Shown piece by piece: positions 2,231 through 28,819 of a stretch of 34,230 nt of DNA. Position numbers and translations under genes: made by a program. How positions within the stretch are numbered: position 1 is the stretch's first letter; each line of letters opens with the position of its first letter. The stretch comes from Salinivirgaceae bacterium (lineage in GTDB: Bacteria; Bacteroidota; Bacteroidia; Bacteroidales; SZUA-534): contig JAEINW010000028.1 of NCBI GenBank assembly GCA_016342715.1, positions 1 to 34,230 of the forward strand. The letters run 5' to 3'. Under the pieces are notes generated by a model. The model made no database searches. It was given only the letters and a program-made list of their open reading frames with translations, and was not told the DNA's origin.

Positions 2231-3040
2231 CTATTCTGGATAAGTCTTTTTGTATACTCGTTCACTTATTTTTATGCTTATTTCAAATAAGAAAAATAAA
2301 GGTATACAAACCATAATTTGGCTTATCACATCGGGTGGTGTTATAATTGCTGATATTATGAGTAGAATAACTGCAATTATTTTCCGGCTTTTTTTCATAA
2401 ATGCAGGAGTAAGTACACCGGTTTTTGTTAAGAAGTAAACCAAAACTGGTATTTCAAAAACAATACCTAATGACAAAGAGACCGAAACCACATTGTGTAA
2501 GTAGGAACTAAGCGAAATGGTATTTTGAACTTGCTCGCTAACCTGATAGGTTCCTAAAAAATTAATAGTTAATGGAACTATTAAAAAATAAGCAAATAAA
2601 ACACCAGTTATAAATAATATGGAACATACAAATACGGCTCCACGACTATGTTTTTTTTCTTTAGAATAAAGAGCGGGTCTAATAAAATTCCAAAATTCAA
2701 AAATAATATAAGGTGCAGCAATAAATATTCCAACAGCAAATGATATATATAAATGTGTAGTAAACTGTCCGGCTAACTTAATATTTATAATTTGTAAGCC
2801 TTCTTGATTTAAACATAATGCTGATGTGTGAAGAGTTTCAGCAAGTTGGCAAAGTAATCTATTTGTTATAAACCAAGGCTCTTTGGGAGCCAAAAACACG
2901 TAATTAAAAACAATGTTTTTATTTAGAAAAGCAACAATACCCACAGCGATAACTGCAAGTAGAGAGCGAATAAACACCCAACGCAATTCTTCTAGATGAT
3001 CCCAAAAGGTCATCTCTACATTGCTCTTTTTTTCACTCAT
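2231..3040 (-). CDS. tatC: Sec-independent protein translocase TatC
   Basis: TatC is the polytopic receptor of the twin-arginine system, which exports folded proteins across the inner membrane. The 269-residue sequence carries the N-terminal signature FWDHLEELR (12-20), equivalent to the HLxELRxR signal-peptide-binding segment. It also has the FWNFIRPALYSKEKK segment in the first large cytosolic loop, and about six membrane spans. The first periplasmic loop (about residues 42-95) is longer than in E. coli, as I would expect for Bacteroidota. The gene starts 2 bases after the stop of tatA, so the two are almost certainly co-transcribed. No tatB is present, consistent with minimal TatA-TatC systems where TatA covers both roles. 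Confidence 0.97.
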   Translation of the reverse strand: MSEKKSNVEMTFWDHLEELRWVFIRSLLAVIAVGIVAFLNKNIVFNYVFLAPKEPWFITNRLLCQLAETLHTSALCLNQEGLQIINIKLAGQFTTHLYISFAVGIFIAAPYIIFEFWNFIRPALYSKEKKHSRGAVFVCSILFITGVLFAYFLIVPLTINFLGTYQVSEQVQNTISLSSYLHNVVSVSLSLGIVFEIPVLVYFLTKTGVLTPAFMKKSRKIIAVILLIISAIITPPDVISQIMVCIPLFFLFEISIKISERVYKKTYPE

Positions 3041-7878: not shown

Positions 7879-7949
7879 TAATGTTTCTGATTAGAATATA
7901 TTTGGTTTATCTCTTGATATATCAGGTTTTCATTGTTCAAAGATTATTT

Positions 7950-7957
7950 TATCTTTG
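7950..7957 (+). promoter_or_regulatory. -7 element for the CsgG-like/LPP20-like lipoprotein pair
   Basis: TATCTTTG matches TAnnTTTG exactly and lies 37 bases before the ATG at 7995. The nearest upstream TTG (7933-7935) is only 14 bases away, shorter than usual. A start of transcription near 7963 would exclude the in-frame ATG at 7881 and supports starting the protein at 7995. Confidence 0.45.
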
Positions 7958-7994
7958 CTGGAATTGCAAGAAATACTCAAATAATCTATTTATT

Positions 7995-9377
7995 ATGATT
8001 AAAAAACTACTCTTATTTACTTTTATAGCTATTTTATTAGTTGGTTGTGCATCTAAACGATATGCAAAAAAAGGATTTGAATTTGAACAAGCAGGTTTAT
8101 ATGAAAATGCTGCAGATATGTATTATATGTCGGTAATGAAAAATCCTAAAAATGTGGAGGCACAAATAGGATTAAAAAAGAACGGTCAATTGGCTCTTGA
8201 TCATAATTTAGGTAAATTTTTAAATTTATACAATGCCGACAATAGCAAAGATGCGGTTTATAAATACATTGATTGTGAAAATTTTTACAATAAAATGCTT
8301 ACTGCAGGAACTGAATTAAATATTCCCAGCCATTATAAAGAGTATTATGAAGAAGTGAAAATTATTTATTTACAGAATAAATATAACGAAGCTTATTTGT
8401 TACTCGAAGAAGAAAAGTTTAATGATGCTGAAGTAATTTTTAATGAAATATTAGCTATTGAGCCTGGATACCAAGATGTAAAGGAATTAAAGAATACGGC
8501 ACATTTTGAACCTATTTATCGTAAAGGAAAAGAGTTAATGAACATTGAACAATACCGTAAATCATATTATAAATTTCAGGAAATCTTTAAAAAAACACCT
8601 AATTATAAAGATGCCAAAGAATTGTCAAATAAAGTTTTAGAAATGGCTACCATTACTATTGCAATTATTGATTTTAAGAATAGTTCGGCAACAAAAAATG
8701 TACAGCTTGAATTAAAAAGTGGCATACAAAAATCATTAACTGAAACAAAGTCGCCATTTATAAAGCTTATTGATAGAGAAAATACTCAAAACATTCTTAG
8801 TGAGCAAATTTTAACTTTAGAAGGTAATGTGGATGAAAGTTTAAGTGCCAAAGCAGGGAAGATGTTTGGGGCAAAAGCTTTACTTGCTGCAGAAGTCACT
8901 AGTTATAAGATATCTCATGGCAAACTAAAAAGCACCTTAAAAAAAGGGTACATTAAAGAAAAAATTGTTGAAAAAAAGGGTGAAGAAGAAATTGTTAAGT
9001 ATGTGTATCACAAAACTACATACAACGAATACAGTATGACTCGTTATGTTACTTGCAATTTTAACTATAAATTAATTTCGGCTGAAACAGGAGAAATTTT
9101 AGTGGCCGATGCCATATCAAGAAGAGTTAGTGATGATATTCATTATGCGAGCTTCGATGGAAATAAAGACAAATTAATTCCCGGGTATTGGGAAAATAAG
9201 AAAGTGGATGGTTCAAAAGATGTAAAAAATGATAATGCTTCAGATATTAGAAAACTTAAGCACTTGTTAGCTTCCAAAACAAAAATAAAAAGCATTGAGC
9301 AGCTTAAAAAAGAAATAAATACAGAAGTGGCCAAATTAGTAACAGAAAAAATTGAAAGATATGATCCAGAAAACTAG
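7995..9377 (+). CDS. Outer-membrane lipoprotein with TPR-like repeats and a CsgG-like domain
   Basis: The frame is open from 7881, but the first 38 residues look like untranslated leader. Starting at 7995 gives MIKKLLLF with lipobox LVGC and a lipidated Cys18, 460 residues in all. Residues about 22-210 contain TPR-like helices (YAKKGFEFEQAGLYENAADMY; YLQNKYNEAYLLLEEEKF; GKELMNIEQYRKSYYKF). From about 216 a CsgG/LpoB-like domain begins with ITIAIIDFKNSSATKN, followed by FIKLIDRENTQNILSEQ and KAGKMFGAKALLAAEV. The tail (about 310-460) holds charged and tyrosine-rich segments I do not recognise. CsgG itself makes the curli pore; LpoB activates a penicillin-binding protein. No curli genes are nearby, so curli secretion is not implied. 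The stop overlaps the next lipoprotein gene by 17-26 bases. Confidence 0.85.
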   Translation: MIKKLLLFTFIAILLVGCASKRYAKKGFEFEQAGLYENAADMYYMSVMKNPKNVEAQIGLKKNGQLALDHNLGKFLNLYNADNSKDAVYKYIDCENFYNKMLTAGTELNIPSHYKEYYEEVKIIYLQNKYNEAYLLLEEEKFNDAEVIFNEILAIEPGYQDVKELKNTAHFEPIYRKGKELMNIEQYRKSYYKFQEIFKKTPNYKDAKELSNKVLEMATITIAIIDFKNSSATKNVQLELKSGIQKSLTETKSPFIKLIDRENTQNILSEQILTLEGNVDESLSAKAGKMFGAKALLAAEVTSYKISHGKLKSTLKKGYIKEKIVEKKGEEEIVKYVYHKTTYNEYSMTRYVTCNFNYKLISAETGEILVADAISRRVSDDIHYASFDGNKDKLIPGYWENKKVDGSKDVKNDNASDIRKLKHLLASKTKIKSIEQLKKEINTEVAKLVTEKIERYDPEN

Positions 9378-10728
9378 TTTTTTAATTATTATAGTTGCCC
9401 TTTTGTTTGCTTGCGGAACTACAAAAAATGTAACACAAACAGTTCCCTTGCCCGATTGGGTGAAAAGCAAACCAGTTTCAACAATATACTATATTGGAAT
9501 TGGGTCGGCAGTAAAAACTGCTAATATTTCAGACTATCAATCGGGTGCAAAAAATAGTGCATTAGCCGACATGACAAGTGAAATTTCGGTGAATATATCT
9601 ACAAGTTCTGTATTGCACAAATTCGAAAGTTCTTTGGGTTATTCCGAAGATTTTTCTGCAGCCACAAAAGCTTCAGCATCTGAAGATTTGGAGGGCTATG
9701 AATTGGTTAACAGTTTTGAATCGGATACACATTATTATGTGTATTATAGATTGTCTAAAATTAAATATACTGAAATTAAGGAGCAACGAAAGGTTGATGC
9801 CATTGCCAAAGGATTAGATTTTTATAACAAAGCTTTAAGTTTTAGAGAGCGAAATCAATATTTTGAAGCCATTTCGAATTATATAAAAGGCTTAGAATGT
9901 ATAAAAGCGTATTTTACAGAATCGCTTGAAACAAATTATAATGGAACTAACATTTATTTGGGAAATGAGTTGTTTTCTGGCTTTGTAAGTACGGTGAATA
10001 GTATTAAAATAATTCCTAAAAAGGAATCGCTTTCTGTAAAAAAAGGACAATCGTTAAGTTCGTCAGATTTATTGTTCACTGTAAAAAATACTGATGGTCA
10101 AAGTTTAAGTGGAATACCTATCTTATTTAATTTAGGAACGTTGCCTTTGCGGAATAGTCAGGTTAAATCAGATGCGAATGGACTTGTTTTTTATCAAATA
10201 AACGAGGTTAAAACAAAAGCAAATCAGACTTATTTTGTTGCAAGTGTTGATATGAATACCTTAGCAACTGGCGTAACTTTTGATCCTTTATTTCGAAAAA
10301 TGATTCGAAAATTTGATGCTCCCAAAGGTCAAATACACATTAGAATAAATAATCCTTCTTTTTATGTGCATTCAACTGAGTTAAATTTTGGTGAGGCATT
10401 AATGCCCAAAATTATTGAACCAAAAGTTCAGCAAATACTTGCAAGCAAAGGATATCCGGTGATTACGAAAAAAGAAGCTGCTGATTATGTGATTGAACTT
10501 GAAATTAATACATTAGAGGATAAACAGCAAGGAAAAATGTATTATGCTTCTTTATCAGGTAATATAAAAATATTTAATAAGCAAAATGAACTCTTAGCAT
10601 TAAAACCCATAGATAAAATTAATGGTGTTAAATTATCATTTAATGATGCAGGTTTTGACGCCTATATAAATTTATCGGATTATTTAGATAGAAATTTAAT
10701 GATCAAGTTAAAAAAGGCCATTGAATAA
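9352..10728 (+). CDS. LPP20-like outer-membrane lipoprotein with Ig-like segment
   Basis: The ATG may be at 9352 or at 9361 (Met4); both lie inside the end of the CsgG-like gene, so translation is probably coupled. The N-terminus has a hydrophobic stretch and lipobox LFAC with Cys21. Residues about 33-150 resemble the LPP20 fold: PDWVKSKP, IGIGSA, ALADMTSEISVNI and a long helix. A helical stretch follows (about 160-195). Residues about 215-310 look like a bacterial Ig/carboxypeptidase-regulatory-like domain (SVKKGQSLSSSDLLFTVKN... SDANGLVFYQI). The C-terminal part (about 325-458) has the pattern of an LptE/CsgG-like alpha-beta lipoprotein domain. I infer that it works with the preceding protein in an outer-membrane-attached complex; its task is unknown. 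Confidence 0.8.
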   Translation: MKDMIQKTSFLIIIVALLFACGTTKNVTQTVPLPDWVKSKPVSTIYYIGIGSAVKTANISDYQSGAKNSALADMTSEISVNISTSSVLHKFESSLGYSEDFSAATKASASEDLEGYELVNSFESDTHYYVYYRLSKIKYTEIKEQRKVDAIAKGLDFYNKALSFRERNQYFEAISNYIKGLECIKAYFTESLETNYNGTNIYLGNELFSGFVSTVNSIKIIPKKESLSVKKGQSLSSSDLLFTVKNTDGQSLSGIPILFNLGTLPLRNSQVKSDANGLVFYQINEVKTKANQTYFVASVDMNTLATGVTFDPLFRKMIRKFDAPKGQIHIRINNPSFYVHSTELNFGEALMPKIIEPKVQQILASKGYPVITKKEAADYVIELEINTLEDKQQGKMYYASLSGNIKIFNKQNELLALKPIDKINGVKLSFNDAGFDAYINLSDYLDRNLMIKLKKAIE

Positions 10729-10827: not shown

Positions 10828-11058
10828 ATGCCAGTAAGTACGCAACAATATCGATCATTAAGACGAAAACATAAGCACCAGATTTTATTAAACGATCATG
10901 AAATTGATGCATTTAATAGATATTGCAAAAAATATAAAGTAAATAATAAATCGAGACTTATTCGTGAGGCCTTGTTTACCAAAGTGCTTCAAAGTTTTGA
11001 AAATGATTATCCTACACTTTTCGATAAAGATGAACTTGCCAGAATGGAGAGAAAATAA
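10828..11058 (+). CDS. Small ribbon-helix-helix-like (CopG/Arc-like) protein
   Basis: The 76-residue protein is basic at its N-terminus (RSLRRKHKHQ), then has a short strand (HQILLN), a helix (DHEIDAFNRYCKKYKV) and a second helix after NKSRLIREALFTKVL, ending with DYPTLFDKDELARM. Strand-helix-helix with NKSxxIREA is the pattern of ribbon-helix-helix DNA-binding proteins, which act as dimers. I believe closely similar proteins are widespread in Bacteroidota, so a housekeeping or regulatory role is more likely than an antitoxin role. No toxin gene adjoins it: the next gene is tatA. The assignment is by pattern only. Confidence 0.75.
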   Translation: MPVSTQQYRSLRRKHKHQILLNDHEIDAFNRYCKKYKVNNKSRLIREALFTKVLQSFENDYPTLFDKDELARMERK

Positions 11059-23069: not shown

Positions 23070-23130
23070 CATAAGCACTTCGTATTCAAATTAAAATGAG
23101 CTCTTCTTTCTTTTTGGAGTTAGCTTATTT

Positions 23131-23138
23131 TATATTTG
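23131..23138 (+). promoter_or_regulatory. -7 element for tamA-tamB
   Basis: TATATTTG is an exact TAnnTTTG match, 32 bases before the ATG at 23171. The nearest TTTG (23113-23116) is 14 bases upstream, tighter than usual. A start of transcription near 23144 would lie after the in-frame ATG at 23096 and supports 23171 as the TamA start. Confidence 0.45.
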
Positions 23139-23170
23139 TGCCCTTAATTATTATAGCAATTGGTTTATTA

Positions 23171-24976
23171 ATGAAACTTAAAAAAATAATTCTTTATATA
23201 TTTTTCGCACAACTTTTTTCTTTTTCATTATATGCGCAAAAAGAGTATAAGGTTCATCAAATAAATTTTGAAGGGAATGCTACTATTCCCAGTGAATTGC
23301 TTTTAAAACAATTAAATACGCAAACAAAAAAGAAATATGAACGCTTATTATTTTGGAAAAAATTTCCAGAGTTTGGATCATTTATTTTGCTGAATGATGT
23401 GGCGCGATTAACAAAGTATTATCAGCGAAACGGCTTTCTAAACCCTGAGATTACCTATAAATTGGACACCTTACCCCATAGAAAACACATTAACATTCAT
23501 ATTCTAATTAAGGAAAATAATTTTGTTAGAATTAAAGATCTTAACTACAATTATGTGGCCGATACCATTAATTTTGGTTTTATTGATTCGATAAAATTTA
23601 AATTACCCTTAAAAAAAGAGGATAGGTTTGTTGACGATAATGTTTATAAAACAAAAACCATAGTATTGCACGAACTATCAAATTTGGGATATCCTTTTTC
23701 AAAGGTTGGTTTTCAAATAAATATTAGTGACAGCAACAAATTTGCAAACATTAATTTTTCTGTGGAACCAAAGCAAAAATCATATTTTGGAAATGTTTCT
23801 ATTTCTGGGGATTCTATAGTTCCAAAGAAATTTATTTATAAATATGTAAGCTTTAGTGAAGGCGATTTATATTCTCAAAAGAAAATTGATAATTTACAGA
23901 GCAAGCTATTTGATACAGAGTTGTTTCAATTTGTAGTTATTCGATCGGTAAAAGATAGTGTGAAAAACAACCTTATTCCAATTGAAATTTACCTTAAAGA
24001 ATTACCTCATTGGACACTTGAAGCAGGAGCCGGATATGGAACAGATGATCGTTTTAGAGTATCGCTTTTAGTTACCCGCTTAAATTTTTTGGGTGGCACA
24101 CGTAAGTTAATCTTCAAGGCGAAAACTTCGTATTTTATTCCTTATAGTTTTGAACTTAAATTCATTCAACCCGATTTATTTATTCAAAATCTTGATTTTG
24201 TGCTGAGTCCTGTTTTTTCTCGTGAAAAAGAAGAAAGTTACACCATTGGCAGATTGGGGACAGGCTTTAATTTCATTTATTACTTAAATAAAAAATCGAA
24301 TGTTAGTTTTACCTATTCAATTGAACGCATTGACCTAAACGAAATAGTAAATTTGCAACTAACAGAATCGGAAATAAAGCGTAGTAATTCTGCTATAATA
24401 GGTGGCTATCAGTATAGTTCTACAAACAATATTTTTAACCCAACGCAAGGCTATAAATTTAATGCAAACGTGGCATACAATGGATTTGGTTTTAATCAGG
24501 ATTTTCAGTTTTATAAAATTGATATATCAAATATTAAATATTTTTCGCTTTCAACAAATGTTGTTCTGGCAGCAAAAGTAAAAGCAGGGGTATTACAAAC
24601 TTTTAAAAAGGAATCGCATACGCCTATTGGCGAACGGTATTATATGGGTGGAGCATCTTCATTGCGAGGTTGGGGTAGGAATGAAATTTCACCAATAAGC
24701 ACTAACGGGTTTGCTGTGGGCGGAAATACTATGATTGAAGGGAGTTTGGAGTTGCGTTTCCCCATTTATGATATTTTTGGAGGCGCTGTTTTTGTAGATG
24801 CAGGTAATGTTTGGACCGATTCATACGCTATATATGCAAATGCATTGCATTACAACACTGGGCTCGGGATACGTATTAAAACACCCATTGGACCCTTTCG
24901 ATTCGATATGGCAACTCCCATAATTAATGATGCCTTAGGTTTTCAATTTTTTATTTCCATTGGTCATGCTTTTTAA
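23171..24976 (+). CDS. tamA: Omp85/TamA-like outer-membrane assembly protein
   Basis: Starting at 23171 yields 601 residues with signal peptide MKLKKIILYIFFAQLFSFSLYAQ; the frame stays open to 23096 but those residues precede a good promoter element. Periplasmic POTRA domains follow (KVHQINFEGNATIPSELLLKQL; YFGNVSISGDSIVPKKFIYKYVSFSEGDLYSQKKIDNLQSKL), then a 16-strand-type barrel from about residue 280 (HWTLEAGAGYGTDDRFRVSL). The Omp85 signature GERYYMGGASSLRGWGRNEI marks the loop-6 region that plugs the barrel. It ends with GLGIRIKTPIGPFRFDMA and a terminal aromatic HAF. It helps place proteins in the outer membrane. tamB starts 12 bases later, which supports TamA over a BamA or patatin-type role. 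Confidence 0.9.
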   Translation: MKLKKIILYIFFAQLFSFSLYAQKEYKVHQINFEGNATIPSELLLKQLNTQTKKKYERLLFWKKFPEFGSFILLNDVARLTKYYQRNGFLNPEITYKLDTLPHRKHINIHILIKENNFVRIKDLNYNYVADTINFGFIDSIKFKLPLKKEDRFVDDNVYKTKTIVLHELSNLGYPFSKVGFQINISDSNKFANINFSVEPKQKSYFGNVSISGDSIVPKKFIYKYVSFSEGDLYSQKKIDNLQSKLFDTELFQFVVIRSVKDSVKNNLIPIEIYLKELPHWTLEAGAGYGTDDRFRVSLLVTRLNFLGGTRKLIFKAKTSYFIPYSFELKFIQPDLFIQNLDFVLSPVFSREKEESYTIGRLGTGFNFIYYLNKKSNVSFTYSIERIDLNEIVNLQLTESEIKRSNSAIIGGYQYSSTNNIFNPTQGYKFNANVAYNGFGFNQDFQFYKIDISNIKYFSLSTNVVLAAKVKAGVLQTFKKESHTPIGERYYMGGASSLRGWGRNEISPISTNGFAVGGNTMIEGSLELRFPIYDIFGGAVFVDAGNVWTDSYAIYANALHYNTGLGIRIKTPIGPFRFDMATPIINDALGFQFFISIGHAF

Positions 24977-24988
24977 TTGCGCTATTGA

Positions 24989-27900
24989 ATGATAAAAAAA
25001 ATAAGTAAAATATTACTACTCATTATATCTTCACTGTTTTTGGTGCTGGTGTTTTTGTTCTTTTTAGTAAAAATTGGGCATTTTAACCCATATCTTGCTA
25101 AAACAATAGAAAGAATAGCTACTGAAAATATAAAGGCCGATGTCAAAATTGAAAGTATTTATGGAGATATTTTTTCACGAATTGGGATAAAAAACCTTGA
25201 AATAAACTACCATTCCGATACGGTTTTGTTTTGTAGTAATATTCAATTAGCATATTCTTTAAAAGATATTTTTTCTAAAAAAATAGTTGTTGAAGATTTG
25301 ATTTTCAGTAATATGTACATGGGCTTGAAGCAGGAGCCAGATTCAATTTGGAATGTATTACATGCTTTCACATTAATTGAAACTAAGGATACCAGCACTG
25401 GATCTTTTGATTGGCCCATTGTATTAAATCATGTGAAGCTTAATAATTTTTACATGGAGGTGTTGCCTTTGATTGAAAACACGGCTATTCCCAAATATAT
25501 AGAGTCAAATATCGGTTTTACTGCCTTTGTGTTAAAGGATTCGGTAAGCATTAACCTTGATTCGGCTACACTATTAACTATAAATCCCGATTTTGAAATA
25601 ATTAATTTGAGCGGAGCCATACAAATAAATACTCATGGATTGCTTTGGCAGGATGCTGAACTTGAATTAAATAATACCGAAGGTATTAGCCATGGAAACA
25701 TAGATTTTTCTAAAAACAACTCCCTTAGAGCAAACGCAATTTTAAGCCCTTTTAATATGGAGGATTTTGCTGCATTTTTTCCTGATCTGAAATTTTATGG
25801 CAGTCCCGATATTGAATTGAATATTTTCGGAAATGAAGAAAAATATGAAGGTAAATTAACAATTAAGCAAGATGATCAGGAAATTTATTTGAGTGGCTGG
25901 CTTGAAAATTTTAGTAAAGCTCCAGTATACGATATCAATTTATCGATGAATAAGTTAAATGGAGCTTACTGGACACAAAATGAAGATTATGAATCGGATA
26001 TATCGGGTAAACTAACTATTAAAGGAAAATATTTTGATAAGGAACGCAGTCAAATAAGCATAGATGGAAAGTTTGATGGTATAAATTATGACGAATATAG
26101 TTTTGAAAATTTTTACCTAAATGCGACGAAAAATAATCAACAAATTAATGGAACCGTAAAGTCAAAAACATGGATGGGCGATGTAAATGCAACATTCAAG
26201 CTATCAAATATTTTTGATCATCCAAACTATGAACTTTTTTGCTCTTATAAAAATTTGAATTTGGAAAAAATACCTGGAGTGGAACTGGTGAAAACAAACT
26301 TAAATGGTAATATATCAATAAATGGAGAAGGTAGTACCCTTGAAAATTTGAATACAGCAATTCGTATAAATTCAACTGCTTCGAGCCTATTAGATTATCC
26401 GATAAACGATTTTACGAGTACAGCAAGTTATAAAAATGGTAGGTACCGTTTTGATGGATTGCATTTTGATAGTCCTTATTTTATGCTTAATGCGCATGGG
26501 AAGGGGGATTTCAATGAAGAGAACGATATTCAATTCGATTTTGAACCACGGAACATTTATGATTTAGTTTCGCAATATGAAATACCTATTTATCATTTAA
26601 ATGGCTCTATTAAAGGACAGATCTCTGGCAATATTCATTCCTTAAAAGGAACTTTTGATTTGGCTTTACATCAAATTCAGTACGATTCTATTTATGCTGA
26701 TAAAGTTATCGCTACTATTGAAGGAACATTGAAGGATAGCCTTTATGATGGAAATATTTCATTCTTTGGCAATAATATTAATTATAATGGCTTTACAATT
26801 AAGCAAATAGATTTAAAAAATAAGTTTTCCAATAATTTAATTGTAGCCGATTTAAATGTTCAGATTAATGATTCACTGAACGGACAATTTTCCGGATCTG
26901 TTAAAGGATTTGAAAACCCCTTAATTCTTTTAGACACACTCAACATAAATTACCTCGATAATCATTGGATCTTAGGCAGCGAAGCCACTTCAATAGCTTT
27001 AAACTCCGATTACATTACCATTAATCAATTTGAATTGGTGTCAGAAAATCAAAAATGCAAAGTGCATGGCAAATTTACCTTTGATGGGGAAGAGGATATT
27101 TCAATTACCTTAGAAAAAATACAAATACAAAAATTACCACTTAGTAAATTTATTCCAATACCATTGTCTGGATATTTATCTTCTGATATTCAATTGCTGG
27201 GTACGGCCGATCATCCCATAATACGTAGCAAACTAGCATTGAATCAGCTGCTTGTTGATACTTATGAAATTGAAGGTGTAAGAGCCCAAATAAATTATGA
27301 GAATGAACTCATAAGTACTACCAGCGAAGTGAACTCAAAATTGCATAAATTGGTTAAAGCCTCTTTAAATATACCTGCACACATAAGTTTTAATGATGAA
27401 ATGTATTTGTTAAATGATCAACCTGGATTTTCAGGATCTGTGAAATTTGACAGTCTCGATTTGCGTAAAATATATATGTTCTATCCTTTGGAATACATAT
27501 CGTTAAGTGGATTTGCATATGCAAATATGAATGTGTCGAATACCATTAACTCGCCCATGTTTAATGGTGTTTTAAAGCTTAGCACAGGGACCTTTGAAAA
27601 CAAAGCTTTTGGTGCATACTATCGCGACATTCAGTTGGGATGTAACATTGAAAACAATACGATTTATGTAAACAAATTCAGTGTTCTTTCAAATAAAAAA
27701 GGAACCTTTTCAATGGACGGTGTCATTGTTATGAAGGATTATTTGTCACCTCTTCCTGATGATTTTACCTTAAATTTAAAAGCTGAAAATTTTCAAGCCT
27801 TAAAATCAAACCGGGTTGAATTAAAATTTTCTTCGAATTTAACTTTGAAAGGACCATTTTTAACGCCTCAGTTTTTTGGGGATATCCAAGTCGTACGATC

Positions 27901-28819
27901 AAGAGTAAATGCGGATTATTTTGGCAACTATATGAATCAAAAAACCGACGACCCCATTCCACCTTTATTGCTTACTGCTTTGAATGATACTTCTGAAAGT
28001 AGCGTAAGCAATGATTATGACAAATTTGGAATTAAGCTTTATGGAACTAATTTTTATAAGCATTTGAATGGACAAGCCACCTTAAAAATTCCTGGTAATA
28101 CATGGATAAAAGGTAAGGATATGAATTTTGAATTGGAGGGTTCATTGCAAGCCATAAAATCATCAGAAAATTTAGATTTATTTGGAACCTTAAAAGTTAA
28201 ACGTGGCTTTTATAAGATTTACGGAAAAAATTTTAATTTTTCTAAGGGAGAACTCACTTTTACTGGAGGAAAGGATATAAATCCGATGGTGAATTTTATT
28301 ATTCTTTATAAATTCAGAGATATTGAAAGCAATTTACGGCAACTAACACTAATTGTTACTGGACGTTTGATGCAACCAGTTATGCAATTTAAATTGGATG
28401 AAAAGGTATTGGATGAAAAGGATGCCGTTGCCTATATTGTTTTTGGTAAAAGTGTAAACCAATTGAGTGATAATCAAAAAAATAAATTGATGGGTGGTGA
28501 AAATATGGCCATGAATTTTGCCTTTGAAGAGCTATCTAATTTATTGAAACAAAATATAAAATTTGCTTCTTATCTCGATGTGGTTGAGATTAGTGGAGAC
28601 AATTCATGGAAAAACCAAAATGTTGCCATTGGAAAATATATAACCAATAATTTATATTTGGGATACGAGCATACATTCTCCGTCGATAAAAAAACGAAAA
28701 CCATAAACTCAGAGAAATTAATGCTCGATTACCAGTTATTACGCAATGTTATTTTAAAGGCCACCAATCAGAGCACTAATTCGGGATTTGATATGATTTA
28801 TAAGAAAAGTTGGAAATAA
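24989..28819 (+). CDS. tamB: TamB-like inner-to-outer membrane bridge protein
   Basis: The 1276-residue protein has one N-terminal membrane span (about 7-28) and then a very long run of short beta-strands (LxLNLxGxxxx, IxIDGKFDG, GxISGN and so on). This predicts a taco-shaped beta-groove like other AsmA/TamB/Vps13-like proteins that carry lipids or hydrophobic segments across the periplasm. The C-terminal TamB domain (DUF490) is recognisable from about 900: LKVKRGFYKIYGKNFNFSKGELTFTGG, the DEKDAVAYIVFGKS segment, and the last strands GKYITNNLYLGYEHTF. The pair tamA-tamB is a normal operon. Length is close to the E. coli protein (about 1260). Confidence 0.93.
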   Translation: MIKKISKILLLIISSLFLVLVFLFFLVKIGHFNPYLAKTIERIATENIKADVKIESIYGDIFSRIGIKNLEINYHSDTVLFCSNIQLAYSLKDIFSKKIVVEDLIFSNMYMGLKQEPDSIWNVLHAFTLIETKDTSTGSFDWPIVLNHVKLNNFYMEVLPLIENTAIPKYIESNIGFTAFVLKDSVSINLDSATLLTINPDFEIINLSGAIQINTHGLLWQDAELELNNTEGISHGNIDFSKNNSLRANAILSPFNMEDFAAFFPDLKFYGSPDIELNIFGNEEKYEGKLTIKQDDQEIYLSGWLENFSKAPVYDINLSMNKLNGAYWTQNEDYESDISGKLTIKGKYFDKERSQISIDGKFDGINYDEYSFENFYLNATKNNQQINGTVKSKTWMGDVNATFKLSNIFDHPNYELFCSYKNLNLEKIPGVELVKTNLNGNISINGEGSTLENLNTAIRINSTASSLLDYPINDFTSTASYKNGRYRFDGLHFDSPYFMLNAHGKGDFNEENDIQFDFEPRNIYDLVSQYEIPIYHLNGSIKGQISGNIHSLKGTFDLALHQIQYDSIYADKVIATIEGTLKDSLYDGNISFFGNNINYNGFTIKQIDLKNKFSNNLIVADLNVQINDSLNGQFSGSVKGFENPLILLDTLNINYLDNHWILGSEATSIALNSDYITINQFELVSENQKCKVHGKFTFDGEEDISITLEKIQIQKLPLSKFIPIPLSGYLSSDIQLLGTADHPIIRSKLALNQLLVDTYEIEGVRAQINYENELISTTSEVNSKLHKLVKASLNIPAHISFNDEMYLLNDQPGFSGSVKFDSLDLRKIYMFYPLEYISLSGFAYANMNVSNTINSPMFNGVLKLSTGTFENKAFGAYYRDIQLGCNIENNTIYVNKFSVLSNKKGTFSMDGVIVMKDYLSPLPDDFTLNLKAENFQALKSNRVELKFSSNLTLKGPFLTPQFFGDIQVVRSRVNADYFGNYMNQKTDDPIPPLLLTALNDTSESSVSNDYDKFGIKLYGTNFYKHLNGQATLKIPGNTWIKGKDMNFELEGSLQAIKSSENLDLFGTLKVKRGFYKIYGKNFNFSKGELTFTGGKDINPMVNFIILYKFRDIESNLRQLTLIVTGRLMQPVMQFKLDEKVLDEKDAVAYIVFGKSVNQLSDNQKNKLMGGENMAMNFAFEELSNLLKQNIKFASYLDVVEISGDNSWKNQNVAIGKYITNNLYLGYEHTFSVDKKTKTINSEKLMLDYQLLRNVILKATNQSTNSGFDMIYKKSWK

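Follow-up and report, generated by a model that had tools for sequence, protein, structure and literature searches.

Overlapping lipoprotein genes with CsgG- and LPP20-type domains form a conserved unit in Bacteroidota and resemble components of outer-membrane-associated rings

Introduction

The flagellar H-ring is formed by FlgO, FlgP and FlgT (PMC6375700). In Vibrio and Colwellia, the genes flgO, flgP and flgT carry consecutive locus tags (PMC6375700). FlgP also forms the concentric rings of the basal disk in Campylobacter, and the origin of flagellar accessory rings has been termed unclear (PMC12222027). In exopolysaccharide export, a ring of PelC holds the TPRs of PelB (PMC12141448). In H. 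pylori, HP1454 and HP1456 (Lpp20) are encoded in a common operon and bind FlgP and FapH, while deletion of hp1456 left motor structure and bacitracin resistance unchanged (PMC11756786). That HP1456 binds ring proteins and can be lost without a motor phenotype is a warning against over-reading a resemblance to the H-ring.

Two overlapping lipoprotein genes were analysed here, which lie in a 34,230-nt stretch of DNA from a Salinivirgaceae bacterium (GCA_016342715.1, contig JAEINW010000028.1), in the following called the window. A preliminary description had singled them out as a candidate for an undescribed system. This agrees with the literature, as no publication naming both LPP20 and CsgG was found in a search mainly outside subscription journals, which were scarcely covered. 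The domains are known, while their combination, a third partner and their distribution appear to be undescribed.

Results

Organisation of the locus

The first gene (P0001, 460 aa) is located on the forward strand at 7995..9377 and the second (P0002, 455 aa) on the same strand at 9361..10728. ATG 7995 is the most likely start of gene 1 (MIKKLLLFTFIAILLVGC), which stops at 9377. Gene 2, with its stop at 10728, starts either at ATG 9361 or at TTG 9352, resulting in an overlap of 17 nt (9361..9377, + strand) or 26 nt, respectively. Both proteins possess a signal peptide and a lipobox cysteine at the N-terminus, Cys18 in either case, and belong to conserved families. ORF coordinates and lipobox cysteines thus bear out what had been described as two lipoprotein genes overlapping by 17–26 bases. 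Chance ORFs as an explanation of both genes are ruled out by conservation.

A promoter shared by both genes had been assumed as well. It is plausible given the common strand, the overlap and the junction of gene 1 and gene 2, at which no terminator was found. It gains nothing from the possible Bacteroidota -7 promoter box (pattern TAnnTTTG) at 7950..7957 on the + strand (TATCTTTG), a weak candidate, or from a second such box at 7897-7904 upstream of gene 1. Both are regarded as candidates only, because the motif occurs in the window at chance frequency (64 seen versus 65 expected). Scans for promoters and terminators gave no informative signal above chance and an Rfam search gave no match.

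Downstream of the pair, a 76-aa ORF without Pfam match is located at 10828-11058 and is kept in four near relatives. It is followed by a TatA-like reading frame at about 11138, and TatC is encoded at 2231-3040 of the same window. An Omp85/POTRA protein and then a TamB-family protein are encoded at 23096-28819.

Conservation of the gene pair

Single-sequence searches of 60 relatives detected either gene in the same 12, and both were adjoining in 11 of these. A search for loci with P0001 alone as query gave 0 loci, compared to 34 loci with the alignment as query. On 33 of 34 named Bacteroidota contigs, both genes lie side by side; the sole exception is Breznakibacter xylanolyticus, which has kept both on different contigs. 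Perlabentimonas gracilis is a carrier that has been cultivated. The genes overlap or are at most 10 nt apart in 30 of the 33 named homologous pairs, which suggests translational coupling and makes it probable for the overlap in the window.

A profile search in 395 genomes of the class gave strong matches for the P0001 type in 82 and for the P0002 type in 77 genomes. Both types were present in 72 genomes while 16 would be expected if they were independent, with a p-value that is inflated by kinship. The pair was adjoining with the P0001 type upstream in 61 of these 72; family f55 has both genes mostly at separate loci. Pairwise distances of P0001 and P0002 homologues correlate with r=0.96 (permutation maximum 0.35), as expected for co-inheritance. 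Judged by these sequence comparisons, the two genes are a real, conserved and coupled unit, and a pair that is conserved in other Bacteroidota rather than rarely found together. Other neighbours of the pair are not kept beyond near relatives. Besides the third lipoprotein described below, no flanking gene was conserved across families, and the next commonest neighbour clusters comprised seven loci or fewer.

Predicted domains of P0001

P0001 matched the Pfam family CsgG with 33.2 bits (cut-off 20.8) and TPR below the threshold. Among 57 P0001 homologues, CsgG was matched by 28, TPR by about half and LpoB (PF13036) by 19, while no LpoB match was reported for P0001 itself. Structures were predicted with AlphaFold2, for which alignments of 57 (P0001) and 59 (P0002) window and locus proteins served as input. 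The model of P0001 (pLDDT 91.6) consists of an all-helical TPR solenoid (residues about 20-218) and one alpha/beta domain of the CsgG/PelC/FlgT-middle type (residues 219-460) with very long strands at 312-328 and 331-362, extended hairpins and a C-terminal helix. The region of residues about 219-460 fitted best to the subunits of the PelC dodecamer with Z 14.3 (rmsd 2.2, 124 aligned), followed by FlgT with Z 14.1 (rmsd 3.8, 148 aligned) and CsgG (6lqh) with Z 13.1 (rmsd 6.6, 175 aligned). XCC0632 was also among the best structural matches, and CsgG was among the top matches in Foldseek (E 5e-6).

A CsgG fold is confidently predicted for P0001. Of the domains first assigned to gene 1, the TPR repeats and a CsgG-like domain are supported by Pfam and by the model. 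The supposed unknown tail of 150 residues is modelled as the remainder of the CsgG-like domain, and a separate C-terminal domain was thus rejected.

Predicted domains of P0002

P0002 matched LPP20 (PF02169) with 29.9 bits (curated cut-off 25.9) and Big_1 below the threshold. All 59 homologues matched LPP20 (E<=0.01), 16 matched Big_1 and two matched LptE. According to the AlphaFold2 model (pLDDT 90.3) and comparison with the PDB, an LPP20/SHS2 domain (residues 31-132) is followed by a helical stretch (133-213, model), an Ig/macroglobulin-like domain (about 213-330) and a CsgG/LptE/PelC/TraT/FlgT-type domain that is similar to the middle domain of FlgT (331-455). The N-terminus aligned with Lpp20 (5ok8; Z 9.2, rmsd 3.7, 103 aligned) and the C-terminus with FlgT, PelC, TraT, CsgG and LptE (Z about 10). 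The alignment with FlgT spans residues 42-455 because the domain order, SHS2 then CsgG-type, is shared. Its rmsd of 24 reflects a different relative placement of the domains, which is expected given the intervening Ig domain. SHS2, Ig and CsgG/LptE-like folds are confident predictions for P0002. The LPP20 fold, the Ig-like domain and the LptE-like C-terminus that had been proposed for gene 2 agree with Pfam, model and PDB comparison, and structure prediction of each protein supported the CsgG-type and LPP20-type folds.

The LPP20 domain holds an insertion of ~39 residues (75-113), for which the model shows helices of low confidence (pLDDT about 63-81). Its counterpart in FlgP would be the ring-forming beta-hairpin, whereas the low-confidence model of the insertion looks more like the non-ring Lpp20. 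FlgP was absent from the lists of structural matches of P0001 and P0002, an absence that does not exclude a likeness to FlgP. A PDB search with single sequences of the window proteins gave no useful match. With the P0002 profile, the best sequence match was 4kzs (E 0.0012), named LPP20 lipofamily protein, which we take to be HP1454 of H. pylori.

A third lipoprotein

A third, FlgP/Lpp20-like lipoprotein of about 195 aa is newly tied to the module by sequence comparison; it had been missed before. In neighbour clustering, it adjoins the pair or the P0002-type gene in 13 loci. It is present in 77 of the 77 class genomes with the P0002 type (395 searched) and lies at most 6 kb from the P0002-type gene in 53 of them, covering 11 families. 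It was also found in genomes without the pair. Its Pfam match to LPP20 is weak (best 21 bits, below the cut-off). In profile comparison, it aligned with the LPP20 region of P0002 (95.5%), and among PDB sequences Lpp20 matched best (5ok8; E 0.016).

In the window's genome, the third lipoprotein is encoded on another contig than the pair (G000:C269:4900-5466), and the window's own family shows no linkage of pair and third gene. It was undetected in four of the 12 relatives with the pair (G004, G009, G011 and G032), three of which are at most 90% complete. The region G000:C269:3449-5466 (L186) contains the third lipoprotein and then a ~430-aa gene that has no match in Pfam. In several relatives (L187-L190, L193, L194), the third lipoprotein is likewise followed by a gene of similar size and orientation.

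Variants of the module

The window's genome contains a second LPP20-Ig-type gene beside a different CsgG/FlgO-type gene on contig C355 (G000:C355:21632-23940; L038 8606-11220). In two further loci (L140 and L144), the LPP20-Ig gene apparently forms an operon with the gene for a protein in which the CsgG domain lies ahead of the TPRs. Given these three arrangements, several CsgG-type proteins appear to serve as partners of the P0002 type. An 857-aa TPR protein is encoded beside the second LPP20-Ig gene on C355. The alternative operons (L144 1336-8722 and L140 4495-10015) comprise the CsgG-TPR protein, the LPP20-Ig protein and the third lipoprotein; the one of L144 also has a caspase-domain (Peptidase_C14) gene and the one of L140 two genes with weak UVR-motif matches.

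Comparison with the H-ring and PelC

The window's genome encodes CsgG-type, SHS2-type and SHS2+CsgG-type proteins. These are the ingredients of the H-ring with FlgO as CsgG-type lipoprotein, FlgP as SHS2/LPP20 lipoprotein and FlgT as SHS2-then-CsgG-type protein. P0001 aligns with FlgT at Z 14.1, and the N and M domains of FlgT are both represented in P0002, in the same order. FlgT, PelC and HP1454/Lpp20 are closer structural parallels that the preliminary description had not named. The module differs from the H-ring in the TPR solenoid of P0001 and in the Ig-like domain of P0002, which is placed between the two FlgT-like domains. FlgT contains a further C-terminal domain, whereas the P0002 model ends at the CsgG-type domain.

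FliG_C was found neither in the window's genome nor in 11 of the 13 other genomes with the module. FliG_C-like matches in the other two, at G058:C78:1120-1377 and G156:C41:108399-108692, may be genuine flagellar genes or have no relation to them. A flagellar system in the window's genome was rejected as no FliG was found. Curlin was not found there either, which is consistent with the absence of curli subunits and flagellar genes in the preliminary description.

PelC and P0001 share the fold of a lipoprotein ring subunit, and no other structure fitted the P0001 domain better (Z 14.3, rmsd 2.2). The TPRs of the Pel system belong to the barrel protein PelB, whereas P0001 carries them in one chain with its ring-type domain, and unlike in PelBC no barrel gene is conserved beside the pair.

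Discussion

Location and possible assembly

Surface export of lipoproteins in Bacteroidota is signalled by K-(D/E)2 or Q-A-(D/E)2 after the cysteine (PMC5080379). In the family members scanned, no lipobox cysteine was followed by two acidic residues within positions +2 to +6, and the lipoproteins are therefore likely to remain on the inner leaflet of the outer membrane. Ring-type folds in a genome that yielded neither a flagellar switch gene nor a curli gene make a ring or scaffold under the outer membrane probable. We propose, with a probability of roughly 0.5, that P0001 and P0002 assemble into a hetero-oligomeric ring or scaffold which is anchored in the outer membrane and faces the periplasm, normally together with the third FlgP/Lpp20-like lipoprotein.

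In such an assembly, P0001 and P0002 would sit on the inner leaflet, and their CsgG-type and SHS2 domains would oligomerise side by side as in the rings of PelC, FlgT and FlgP. The TPR solenoid of P0001 would reach into the periplasm and recruit or seat a client, which may be a trans-envelope machine or an export barrel. This docking arm is likened to the TPRs of PelB lying in the PelC ring. The gene overlap would keep the synthesis of both proteins coupled. Ring form and stoichiometry are what we infer from the models; the predicted monomer folds do not prove a ring. The helical model of the insertion in P0002, the unlinked third gene of the window's own family and the four relatives in which it was undetected count against the proposal.

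Alternative functions

Not all proteins with the superfamily fold form rings: LptE, TolB and LpoB, the last of which binds and activates PBP1b, do not, and LptE and LpoB work as monomers. These relatives keep alive the alternative that P0001 and P0002 are an LpoB- or LptE-like activator pair of low copy number which docks on a synthase or barrel. The LpoB profile matches in 19 of 57 P0001 homologues and the LptE-like fold of the P0002 C-terminus would fit to it, while no penicillin-binding protein or LptD was identified beside the pair among the neighbours searched, and two CsgG-type domains together with two SHS2 lipoproteins look more like a multi-subunit assembly. We consider an activator pair unlikely. 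An Lpp20/HP1454-like network that stabilises the envelope without a fixed client is improbable. It would account for the best profile matches of P0002 (4kzs, presumably HP1454) and of the third protein (5ok8, Lpp20/HP1456). The two H. pylori proteins bind FlgP and FapH, yet hp1456 can be deleted without a change in motor or bacitracin resistance (PMC11756786), as a protein of such a network might be. The other domains are unlike, H. pylori is flagellated and no H. pylori counterpart of the TPR-bearing P0001, i.e. no TPR-CsgG partner, is named (PMC11756786).

A pore had been suggested for the module, too. As a secretion pore of the CsgG/HfaB type, P0001 would form the membrane-spanning barrel with P0002 as accessory and export an adhesin or fibre subunit. 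CsgG as one of the top Foldseek matches (E 5e-6), the Pfam match above the cut-off and the unusually long strands 312-328 and 331-362 of the P0001 model argue for it, and P0001 shares its overall domain fold and Pfam family with the curli channel. Each subunit of the nonameric CsgG ring contributes two amphipathic membrane-spanning beta-hairpins, which were not seen in P0001 by the hydropathy test. In the hairpin arms of P0001, both faces are hydrophilic (312-328: means of -1.42 and -1.55, net charge +5). The control, E. coli CsgG, differed in having several strand windows with one face above +2. Curlin repeats were detected in 0 of 14 genomes with the module, the window's genome included, with a positive E. 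coli control, and no conserved secreted substrate adjoins the pair. Because of the hydrophilic hairpin and as no curlin was found, a curli-type pore is disfavoured, and we regard a secretion pore as distinctly improbable.

Implications

The ring or scaffold proposed here can be taken further, albeit tentatively and with some doubt. Many Bacteroidota without flagella may build a FlgO/FlgT/FlgP-like ring of three lipoproteins at the inner face of the outer membrane, which would serve as bushing or docking collar for a different trans-envelope machine. If this is true, the flagellar H-ring would represent one application of a general-purpose ring kit that is older. The H-ring, the basal disk, PelC and CsgG are outer-membrane-associated rings that are tied to a single machine each. 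Finding their parts in a widespread module that lacks a flagellum would uncouple ring and machine and would bear on the origin of flagellar accessory rings. It would also provide a short list of genes for a new envelope complex in Bacteroidota, a phylum in which outer-membrane machines are often unlike their E. coli counterparts.
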